Shown: positions 7,893 to 51,482 of the stretch, in pieces
Layout of the letters: each line of letters opens with the position of its first letter
Numbering within the stretch: position 1 is the stretch's first letter
Assembly: GCA_019695115.1 (NCBI GenBank)
Contig: JAIBAP010000028.1
Span: forward strand, 1-64,000
Length of the DNA stretch: 64,000 nt
Origin: Caldilineales bacterium
GTDB taxonomy: Bacteria > Chloroflexota > Anaerolineae > J102
Direction of reading: 5' to 3'
Translations under genes and position numbers: made by a program
The notes under the pieces: generated by a model
Seen by the model: the letters and a program-made list of their open reading frames with translations, nothing else
Told to the model about the DNA's origin: nothing
The model's database searches: none

Positions 7893-7909
7893 TAGCTTGC
7901 CAGTTGACT

Positions 7910-8073
7910 GTTCCGTGTTCCGTGTTCCGTGTTCCGTGAGGATCGCCGACGTCTTCCCACGCCTCACGCCTCACGCCTCACGCCTCACGCTTCACGCTTC
8001 ACGCTTCACGCTTCACGCTTCACGCTTCACGTTTCACGCAACACGCAACACGCAACACGCAACACGCAACACC
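7910..8073. repeat. Simple-sequence block of 7-8 bp words
   Basis: Runs of tgttccg, then cacgcct, then cacgctt, then acgcaac succeed one another, each repeated several times. Closely similar words occur at 14741-14805, 23926-24043, 31428-31504 and 33558-33632. Here the block lies in the 5' leader of the peroxiredoxin gene. It has no spacer/repeat architecture, so it is not a CRISPR. The rest of the 7670-8127 gap holds a 14-bp tandem duplicate (gggtagccgg words near 7752-7775) and the promoter at 7864. Confidence 0.85.
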
Positions 8074-8127: not shown

Positions 8128-8652
8128 ATGGACGCCCTTCTCGACACCATGCCGGCGCTCGACTTTCAGTCGCAGACCAACACCGGCGAACCCTTCCAAC
8201 TCACCCAGTACCAGGGCCAGCGCCACGTCGTGCTCGTCTTCAACCGCGGCTTCACCTGACCCTTCTGCCGCAAGCATATGGCGCAGTTGCGCCAAGACTA
8301 TCAGGCATTCATCGCCCGCGGGGCCGAGATCGTGGTCGTGGGACCCGAAGACGCCCGCATGTTCAACTATGTCTGGGATAAGGAGGCCATGCCCTTCGTG
8401 GGCGTTCCCGACCCCGACCATATCGTGGCCGAGCTCTACAGCCAGCAGGTCAAACTGCTCAAATTCGGCCGCATGCCCGCCCTGGTGGTCATCGACAAAC
8501 AGGGCCAGATCCGCTACCGGCACTATGCCAACTCCATGAGCGACATCCCCCCCAACGCCGAAATCCTGGCCGTGCTCGATCAACTCAACCGGCCGGACGG
8601 CGGCGCCGCGGCCATCACCCCTTCCCATCTGAGCCACGCCATGTCGGTCTGA
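8128..8652 (+). CDS. Peroxiredoxin-like (AhpC/TSA) selenoprotein with in-frame UGA
   Basis: A thioredoxin-fold peroxiredoxin-like protein of 174 residues if the TGA at 8257-8259 is read as selenocysteine. Frame and homology are continuous across the stop: VVLVFNRGFT-U-PFCRKHMA, where relatives have Cys-x-x-Cys after an RG. So Sec44-x-x-Cys47 replaces the redox pair CxxC. The downstream half (VVVGPEDARMFNYVW, FGRMPALVVIDKQGQIRYRH) is the normal fold. A GC-rich hairpin at 8279-8294 lies at the correct distance for a bacterial SECIS. An alternative reading is a nonsense-mutated pseudogene, which the intact downstream frame and the hairpin argue against. lacI follows 10 bp later. selA/B/C/D are not in this window. 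Confidence 0.75.
8279..8294 (+). promoter_or_regulatory. Candidate bacterial SECIS hairpin
   Basis: TGGCGC-AGTT-GCGCCA forms a perfect 6-bp stem with an AGUU loop. The loop begins about 25 nt after the in-frame UGA at 8257-8259, within the spacing known for bacterial SECIS elements, and it holds a GU as in the SelB-binding loop of E. coli fdhF. The assignment follows from spacing and loop content only. Confidence 0.55.
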
Positions 8653-40789: not shown

Positions 40790-40862
40790 GCCCTGGTAGC
40801 TCAGCGGATAGAGCGCTTCCCTGCGGAGGAAGAGGCCGAGCGTTCAAGTCGCTCCCAGGGTA
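40790..40862 (+). tRNA. tRNA-Arg (anticodon GCG)
   Basis: A 73-nt cloverleaf: acceptor GCCCTGG/CCAGGGT, D stem GCTC/GAGC, anticodon stem CTTCC/GGAAG with loop CTGCGGA (anticodon GCG), a 5-nt variable loop, and T arm GAGCG-TTCAAGT-CGCTC. The discriminator is A and CCA is not encoded. It reads CGC (and CGT). Most bacteria use an A34-edited ACG tRNA for these codons, so the GCG form is notable. Confidence 0.9.
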
Positions 40863-40954: not shown

Positions 40955-41072
40955 GTTCCATCAAGAGTGACTGAGGGTAACGGCCCTGGGAAGTCCGGCA
41001 ACCTGCTGCACGAACAAGTTCAGCAAGGTGCCAATTCCGGCTGGCGAGTCGCATCGCCTGGCAAGATGGAAC
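40955..41072 (+). promoter_or_regulatory. SAM riboswitch aptamer (SAM-I/S-box type)
   Basis: P1 is GTTCCATC (40955-40962) paired with GATGGAAC (41065-41072). Internal conserved elements in order are CAAGAGTGACTGAGGG, GGCCCTGGGAAGTCCGGCAA (the kink-turn/pseudoknot region with GGCAACC), AAGGTGCCAATTCCGGC and GCAAGATGGA. These are the S-box landmarks. SAM binding would stabilise P1. It lies between a strong promoter and a terminator, ahead of the moxR-VWA-MAT operon. Confidence 0.9.
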
Positions 41073-48487: not shown

Positions 48488-49267
48488 GTGAAACTCGCCA
48501 TTTCGGGCAAGGGCGGCGTGGGCAAGACCACCCTCGCCGCCCTGCTTGCCCAAACCTTCGCCGACGCCGGCCGCGACGTGCTGGCTGTCGACGCCGACCC
48601 TTCCCCCTGCCTGGCTCAGGCGCTCGGCTTCCCCCCCGACCTGCGCGCCCGGCTACGGCCCATCGTCGAGATGGACGCCCTGATCGAAGAACGCACGGGC
48701 GCCAAACCGGGCGCGTTCGGCGGCTTCTTCAGCCTCAACCCGCGCGTCGATGACCTCCCCGACCGTTTCAGCGTCCGGCACCGCGGGGTGCGGCTGTTGG
48801 AGATGGGCGGCATCGAGCAGGGCGGCTCCGGCTGCATCTGCCCCGAAAGCGCCATGCTCAAGACCTTGTTCACCCATCTGCTCTTTCGCAAGGACGACGT
48901 ACTCATCCTGGACATGTACGCCGGGGTGGAGCACCTGGGCCGGGCGACGGTGGACTTCGTCGATGCCATGCTGGTGGTGGTCGAACCGACGCGGCGCAGC
49001 CTGGGCACGGCGGCGCAGATCAAGCAACTGGCCCACGACATCGGTCTAACGCGGCTGTGGCTGGTGGGGAACAAGGTGCGGGGGGCCGAGGAGGAGGCTT
49101 TTCTGCGGGCCGAGGCCCCTGGTTTGCCCGTTCTTGGCTTCCTGCCTGCGGACGACGGCGTGCTGGAGGCCGACCGGTTGGGCTTACCCGCCTATGATCA
49201 CGTCCCCGCCCTGCGCCAGGCGGCCCTCGACATCATGGCGCAGATGGCGAAAGCCGACAAAGCCTAG
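48488..49267 (+). CDS. cooC: CO dehydrogenase nickel-insertion ATPase CooC
   Basis: A 259-aa MinD/ParA-type ATPase. The deviant Walker A is AISGKGGVGKTTLAALLA, the signature VLAVDADPSPCLAQALG follows, and the metal-binding CxC of CooC is SGCICPESAM. DVLILDMYAGVEHLGRAT is the Walker B region. It loads nickel into the CODH C-cluster. It starts with GTG at 48488. In many genomes it sits next to cooS; here it is about 15 kb away. Confidence 0.9.
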   Translation: MKLAISGKGGVGKTTLAALLAQTFADAGRDVLAVDADPSPCLAQALGFPPDLRARLRPIVEMDALIEERTGAKPGAFGGFFSLNPRVDDLPDRFSVRHRGVRLLEMGGIEQGGSGCICPESAMLKTLFTHLLFRKDDVLILDMYAGVEHLGRATVDFVDAMLVVVEPTRRSLGTAAQIKQLAHDIGLTRLWLVGNKVRGAEEEAFLRAEAPGLPVLGFLPADDGVLEADRLGLPAYDHVPALRQAALDIMAQMAKADKA

Positions 49268-49270
49268 CCC

Positions 49271-50041
49271 CGCCCCTGCTTACTCCTGCTCCCACTCCAC
49301 CCGCTCGTAAATGGTCGCCAAGACTATTGACAACTCAATGGAGGGCAGCCGTAGCACCGATTCGGGCGCGCCGAACGCTGTGAGCAGCCATGTATTGTTG
49401 GTCTGACGTTGGTAGTGCTCGACATAAAATCGATTCTGATCGACGAGGATATACTCCTTCAGCGTGCTGATGGCCCGATAGAACTCGAATTTCTTGCCGC
49501 GATCATAGGTCTCTGTCGAGGGGGAAAGGACTTCCATGATGATGACGGGATTGGTCACCGTGTCCAGGCGACCAGGCGCGAAGCGCAAAGAACCGCAGAT
49601 GACCATGATGTCGGGGTAGGTGAAGAACTGGTCGCCCTTTGTGAACAGACGCAGGTCGGTGGCAAAAACGCGGCATGACTGGTCGATGCCGCGACGTAAG
49701 GCGGTGTAGAGATTGCCCACAATCTGGTTGTGGTTGAGCGACCCACCCGCCATGGCGAAAATCTCGCCGCGGTAGTATTCGCTGCGATCATCCGCCCGTT
49801 CTTCGTGGGCAAAGTACTCTTCGACGGTGAAATAGGGCTGGGTTTTGGGCAAGGCGCTCATGGGCAAGCTGGAAAGCTGATCGGGGCCTGAAAAACGTTC
49901 GGGTTTGATTTTGGCACAGGCGTTGCGATCTGGCAAGCCGATTGTGGGCGAGGGTTGGCGCTCAGTCGGGCGCGCCCGAATTGCCGCCGACGTTCTCCTG
50001 GCGTAGAATGGGCGCTGGATGGAACTTCGCGGAACTGCCTT
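49271..50041. repeat. 771-bp direct duplication, copy A
   Basis: It matches 50712-51482 with no difference that I can see (offset 1441), and one mismatch separates it from 8 further matching bases. It contains a complete Uma2 gene and about 180 bp of its upstream sequence. Such identity means a recent duplication or gene conversion. Confidence 0.95.
49280..49861 (-). CDS. Uma2-family (DUF820) putative endonuclease, copy A
   Basis: A 193-aa PD-(D/E)XK-fold protein of the Uma2 family: FTVEEYFAHEERADDRSEYY, GSLNHNQIVGNLYTALR, TYPDIMVICGSLRFA, NPVIIMEVLSPSTETYDRG and EYILVDQNRFYVEHYQRQ include the Asp and Glu-x-Leu catalytic positions. The family is strongly expanded in Cyanobacteria and Chloroflexota and has no proven role. 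The start at 49861 (MSALPKTQ) was chosen. It is identical in sequence to copy B. Confidence 0.85.
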   Translation of the reverse strand: MSALPKTQPYFTVEEYFAHEERADDRSEYYRGEIFAMAGGSLNHNQIVGNLYTALRRGIDQSCRVFATDLRLFTKGDQFFTYPDIMVICGSLRFAPGRLDTVTNPVIIMEVLSPSTETYDRGKKFEFYRAISTLKEYILVDQNRFYVEHYQRQTNNTWLLTAFGAPESVLRLPSIELSIVLATIYERVEWEQE

Positions 50042-50681: not shown

Positions 50682-50711
50682 CGCGCGGCAGAAGCCGAGA
50701 AGCCCTGGCGC

Positions 50712-51482
50712 CGCCCCTGCTTACTCCTGCTCCCACTCCACCCGCTCGTAAATGGTCGCCAAGACTATTGACAACTCAATGGAGGGCAGCCGTAGCACCG
50801 ATTCGGGCGCGCCGAACGCTGTGAGCAGCCATGTATTGTTGGTCTGACGTTGGTAGTGCTCGACATAAAATCGATTCTGATCGACGAGGATATACTCCTT
50901 CAGCGTGCTGATGGCCCGATAGAACTCGAATTTCTTGCCGCGATCATAGGTCTCTGTCGAGGGGGAAAGGACTTCCATGATGATGACGGGATTGGTCACC
51001 GTGTCCAGGCGACCAGGCGCGAAGCGCAAAGAACCGCAGATGACCATGATGTCGGGGTAGGTGAAGAACTGGTCGCCCTTTGTGAACAGACGCAGGTCGG
51101 TGGCAAAAACGCGGCATGACTGGTCGATGCCGCGACGTAAGGCGGTGTAGAGATTGCCCACAATCTGGTTGTGGTTGAGCGACCCACCCGCCATGGCGAA
51201 AATCTCGCCGCGGTAGTATTCGCTGCGATCATCCGCCCGTTCTTCGTGGGCAAAGTACTCTTCGACGGTGAAATAGGGCTGGGTTTTGGGCAAGGCGCTC
51301 ATGGGCAAGCTGGAAAGCTGATCGGGGCCTGAAAAACGTTCGGGTTTGATTTTGGCACAGGCGTTGCGATCTGGCAAGCCGATTGTGGGCGAGGGTTGGC
51401 GCTCAGTCGGGCGCGCCCGAATTGCCGCCGACGTTCTCCTGGCGTAGAATGGGCGCTGGATGGAACTTCGCGGAACTGCCTT
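50712..51482. repeat. 771-bp direct duplication, copy B
   Basis: Second copy of 49271-50041, here divergent from an MNT/HEPN pair. The junction after 51482 differs from copy A. Confidence 0.95.
50721..51302 (-). CDS. Uma2-family (DUF820) putative endonuclease, copy B
   Basis: This 193-aa protein is identical to copy A. It ends 40 bp after the RelE/ParE-like gene on the other strand and points away from the MNT gene. Confidence 0.85.
   Translation of the reverse strand: MSALPKTQPYFTVEEYFAHEERADDRSEYYRGEIFAMAGGSLNHNQIVGNLYTALRRGIDQSCRVFATDLRLFTKGDQFFTYPDIMVICGSLRFAPGRLDTVTNPVIIMEVLSPSTETYDRGKKFEFYRAISTLKEYILVDQNRFYVEHYQRQTNNTWLLTAFGAPESVLRLPSIELSIVLATIYERVEWEQE

Follow-up and report, generated by a model that had tools for sequence, protein, structure and literature searches.

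The window, that is, the whole 64,000-nt stretch of DNA analysed, carries on its forward strand (8128-8652) a putative selenoprotein gene coding for 174 amino acids plus stop, with an AhpC/TSA (thioredoxin-like) fold, as judged from its frame, Pfam match, alignment and structural model. The frame runs from the ATG at 8128 to a TGA at 8650-8652 and contains one in-frame TGA, at 8257-8259, and no other stop. This UGA would specify selenocysteine 44 (Sec44) and opens a U-P-F-C motif, whose Cys47, the second residue of UxxC, is encoded by a TGC on the same strand (8266-8268). A SECIS-like hairpin follows at 8279-8294, also on the forward strand, and further downstream the codon for Pro117 (8476-8478) places a proline, within the sequence GRMP, at the cis-Pro position of the thioredoxin fold; this residue is Pro in 81 of 81 aligned copies.

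The gene was originally predicted to be a probable selenoprotein, with a TGA at the first position of a CxxC-type motif and with frame and homology running on beyond it, and these features are borne out. The 130 codons between the internal and the terminal TGA remain open, and the Pfam AhpC-TSA match (70.1 bits against a gathering score of 26, E 2e-19) covers residues 9-130 and extends across the TGA, as does the match to Redoxin. An in-frame UGA with conserved homology to both sides, by which bacterial selenoproteins are recognised, is thus found here.

Downstream of the gene lies a LacI-type regulator, and upstream, on the opposite strand, a radical SAM gene. Arrays of 7-base tandem repeats (TGTTCCG, CACGCTT, CACGCAA) occupy 7909-8072, just upstream of the selenoprotein gene. 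Elsewhere, the window contains a 300-nt direct repeat with 98% identity between its copies (49246-49545 and 50687-50986, 1441 nt apart), a SAM riboswitch (RF00162, 69.5 bits, 40955-41072), and a tRNA at 40790-40862.

Selenocysteine machinery and distribution of the gene

The source genome is a draft assembly of 5.99 Mb in 135 contigs. The original prediction had proposed looking in it for selA, selB, selC and selD, and the full set is present: selA (553 bits), selB with its neighbours (335 bits), selD (353 bits), and a tRNA-Sec with anticodon TCA (UCA; 73 bits). The selD gene itself carries a single in-frame TGA (L018 1531-1533, G000:C3), in the motif CAGUASK, with a stable hairpin downstream. 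The genome encodes another probable selenoprotein (L052, G000:C3:136355-136639, minus strand), with a ULPC motif (HLGULPCRQHVAQLR) and a TGGCGC-AGTT hairpin matching that of the window gene. A homologue at C12 of this genome was also listed with a TGA and was rejected: it is an ordinary PrxQ, and the TGA is its normal stop.

A search of 396 genomes from the same class gave 117 that encode a homologue counted as close with a TGA inside the match; the family is also found in other classes of the phylum, in fewer genomes. Searching genome contigs with the single protein sequence returned distant homologues only. The gene selA is present in 108 of the 117 homologue-bearing genomes and in 212 of the 279 others (Fisher p 6e-5), an association that reaches significance but says little on its own, since selA is found in most genomes of the class. 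Of the nine homologue-bearing genomes in which selA is missing, eight have a selB scoring above the cut-off, which makes assembly gaps the probable cause. Weaker TGA-containing matches recur in several genomes of this search, and an AhpC/TSA domain of one relative (L041, G028:C94, minus strand), with the sequence FFQRCGUGPDR, is another candidate for an active-site Sec.

In 60 relatives, the close homologues covering the full site carry TGA, at the same codon where it was read. The 82 distinct copies read directly, from many genera, all have TGA at the Sec44 codon, and none has Cys. This list was drawn by a pattern that allowed U or C at the site and fixed several neighbouring residues, and the conservation of those residues in it is therefore not counted as evidence. 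The position of the stop is thus not random among orthologues. A comparison for Cys at this site had also been suggested; the site proved to be conserved as TGA, and hardly any of the Cys homologues that would be expected turned up. A diverged copy with TGC at the site (L090, G289:C99) is the single close Cys form found. Substitutions in its hairpin (Ala GCG to Thr ACT, Gln CAG to CAA, Leu TTG to CTT) remove stem bases, but the region could still adopt a different fold; its genome retains selB and has selA in two pieces. This organism may be losing Sec, or its assembly may contain an error.

Conservation of the hairpin and reading of the UGA

The hairpin is present as the original prediction had described it, with a perfect GC-rich stem of 6 bp (UGGCGC/GCGCCA, 8279-8284 and 8289-8294) and an AGUU loop (8285-8288) beginning 25 nt after the UGA. 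The published model of bacterial SECIS elements asks for a loop of 3-9 nt with a G in its first two positions, a stem of 4-16 bp, a distance of 16-37 nt from the UGA, and a minimum free energy of at most -7.5 (PMC13188914). With its 4-nt loop, 6-bp stem, spacing of 25 nt, and about -10 to -12 kcal/mol, the hairpin falls within all of these limits. Taken alone, it is nevertheless weak evidence and not beyond chance: in this GC-rich DNA, 33 TGA sites of the 64-kb window pass a similar screen, 8257 included, and only the latter has a UxxC motif in the residues listed. The folding energy of the single sequence is not unusual against dinucleotide shuffles (z about -0.8 to +0.2), nor is it significant against synonymous-codon shuffles (p 0.07), and for this reason it was not used as evidence.

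Comparison across related genomes gives a different picture, where TGA and hairpin together are clearly beyond chance. At synonymous sites, the codons within the hairpin hardly vary: Ala52 is GCG in 81 of 82 copies (against 22% in the rest of these genes), Leu54 is TTG in 75 of 78 (against 16%), Gln53 is CAG in all 70, and codon 49 ends in G in 78 of 82. Against synonymous shuffles, the hairpin energy across copies averages z -2.05; no excess folding is seen at 15 other offsets along these genes (mean z from -0.29 to +0.26). Since the species are related, the copies do not count as independent, and the other offsets serve as the control; both the synonymous-site and the folding tests are independent of the pattern that drew the 82 copies. 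Each of the six stem pairs forms in 71 to 82 of the 82 copies. One pair is broken in 11 of them, and in four copies a stem pair has undergone a compensatory change from G-C to C-G. In 81 of 82 copies, a G occupies the first or second position of the loop, and a G remains in one of these positions where the loop has changed from AGTT to GCNT. Nearly all directly read copies thus keep the RNA hairpin, which provides a clear SECIS consensus for this bacterial group.

These results bear on three other readings of the UGA. A changed genetic code, in which UGA would stand for another amino acid in this lineage, could account for a TGA open in frame, yet it has practically no chance of being right given that the same gene terminates with TGA, that the Sec tRNA and SelB are present, and that recoding goes together with a conserved hairpin.

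It is exceedingly improbable that the gene is a pseudogene with a real stop, or that the TGA is a miscalled TGC. A lone in-frame stop in a conserved gene has the look of a fresh pseudogene, and the contig does come from a draft assembly. However, the TGA is common to many independent genomes, and this refutes both variants; moreover, no further stop has appeared in the frame, third-position bias continues downstream of the TGA, the synonymous constraint is specific to the hairpin, and the Sec machinery is complete.

Very unlikely, too, is a division into two products, as a standard gene caller would have it, with a 43-residue peptide up to the UGA and a protein of 124 amino acids started internally. 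The listing of open reading frames does include one inside the selenoprotein frame that starts with an ATG (8278-8652). This ATG corresponds to Met51, however, a position occupied by Leu in 23 of 81 copies, and the internal protein would be left without the active-site strand and the UxxC motif. In the aligned copies, codon-position differences are alike before and after the TGA, with third positions the fastest, and divergence upstream of the TGA resembles that downstream. An annotation taking the TGA as a stop would halve the gene and lose its active site.

The gene at 8128-8652 is, on comparative grounds, almost certainly a genuine bacterial selenoprotein with Sec44, a reading supported by the complete machinery and by the same TGA in its homologues. 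Codon, machinery, conserved hairpin and predicted fold, as compared between sequences, lead us to infer that Sec is inserted in the cell. In the proposed mechanism, SelB with Sec-tRNA(Sec) would bind the hairpin just downstream of the UGA at 8257, and Sec44 would be inserted instead of translation being terminated. The product would be a cytosolic-looking protein of roughly 19 kDa with a single AhpC/TSA domain.

Active site and relation to known selenoproteins

The predicted structure has a thioredoxin-like fold (pLDDT 86, pTM 0.82), with residue 44 just before a helix at 45-56. The active site Sec44-Pro-Phe-Cys47 would thus stand at the start of helix 1, with the conserved Pro of GRMP opposite. 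Columns 44 and 47 are invariant in the alignment. The gene had been called a peroxiredoxin, and this stands as far as the AhpC/TSA fold is concerned; the Sec is found at the preceding Thr position rather than at the peroxidatic Cys. Alignment with PrxQ places Sec44 on the Thr of TxxC and Cys47 on the peroxidatic Cys, while alignment with ResA places Sec44 on the first Cys of CxxC. These two placements make a UxxC chemistry of the thioredoxin type more likely.

Sec is a stronger nucleophile than Cys. Sec44 would most likely be the attacking nucleophile, Cys47 would resolve it as a selenenylsulfide, and a reductant of the thioredoxin type would restore Sec44. From the position of the Sec, the enzyme is probably either a thiol:disulfide oxidoreductase or a reductant-dependent peroxidase, possibly dependent on thioredoxin; this enzymatic role is suggested by motif and predicted fold, and peroxiredoxins and ResA alike appear among the ranked sequence matches. 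Alternatively, the selenoprotein might work by classical peroxiredoxin chemistry, in which Cys47 would be the peroxidatic residue and Sec44 would have a resolving or tuning role. The alignment of Cys47 and Sec44 with PrxQ is in line with this, as are the solved structures nearest to the model, which are Bcp peroxiredoxins (Bcp1, 3drn, first), ResA being also close. We consider this unlikely, though with an appreciable chance, given that the stronger nucleophile sits at the position of the ResA/thioredoxin nucleophile, and that the residue at the thioredoxin cis-Pro position is always Pro in the aligned copies. The classical signature (T/S)xxC(P) with a conserved Thr is also absent from the protein, the Thr position being Sec44 and residue 43 being variable.

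In 9 of the 20 relatives examined (L179, L181, L183, L184, L187, L188, L190, L195 and L197), one or two genes for alpha/beta hydrolases, of the Abhydrolase_1 and Abhydrolase_5 types, precede the homologue on the same strand, in most cases as immediate neighbours, and those sequences shown have a hydrophobic N-terminus. The window locus has no alpha/beta hydrolase gene upstream of the selenoprotein gene. That the family is a class-wide, almost all-Sec group of Prx-like proteins in which Sec is hard to trade for Cys, tied to these hydrolases and with a substrate new for Prx-like selenoproteins, is a speculative and rather improbable proposal. The clade is unusual in that it is almost entirely Sec, with hardly any Cys form, and it is therefore well suited to asking why certain enzymes retain selenium.

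Several known proteins share the fold of the window protein. The TxxU selenocysteine peroxiredoxin (NCBIfam peroxi_PrxU) and PrxQ/Bcp, the PrxQ of the same genome being about 32% identical, differ from it in that its Sec lies three residues earlier and the conserved Thr-x-x-Cys/Sec is missing. In ResA/TlpA, the CxxC aligns with UxxC, and the thioredoxin-fold Pro is kept in the window protein, which, unlike them, has no apparent signal or membrane anchor, has Sec for the first Cys, and falls short of the family cut-off. The protein stays under the cut-off of every NCBIfam model: the best match, the SelL-related redox protein NF040769 (residues 9-100), scores 70.1 bits against 120, and the deiodinase-related NF038285 scores 21 against 250. 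A narrow literature search found nothing on point on selenoproteins of Anaerolineae or Chloroflexota.

The closest counterparts are the Prx-like UxxC selenoproteins already described (Prx-like thiol:disulfide oxidoreductase or Prx-like 1, pfam00578; PMC1088965, PMC2398784, PMC13188914), which have in common with the window gene the AhpC/TSA domain, the UxxC motif, and a bacterial SECIS just after the UGA. Prx-like 1 was mostly a Cys protein in an ocean survey, with 2,740 Cys homologues against 225 Sec forms (PMC2398784), whereas nearly all forms found in the clade of the window gene have Sec. By domain and motif, the window gene fits this known group; as bacterial selenoproteins go, it is real but unexceptional.
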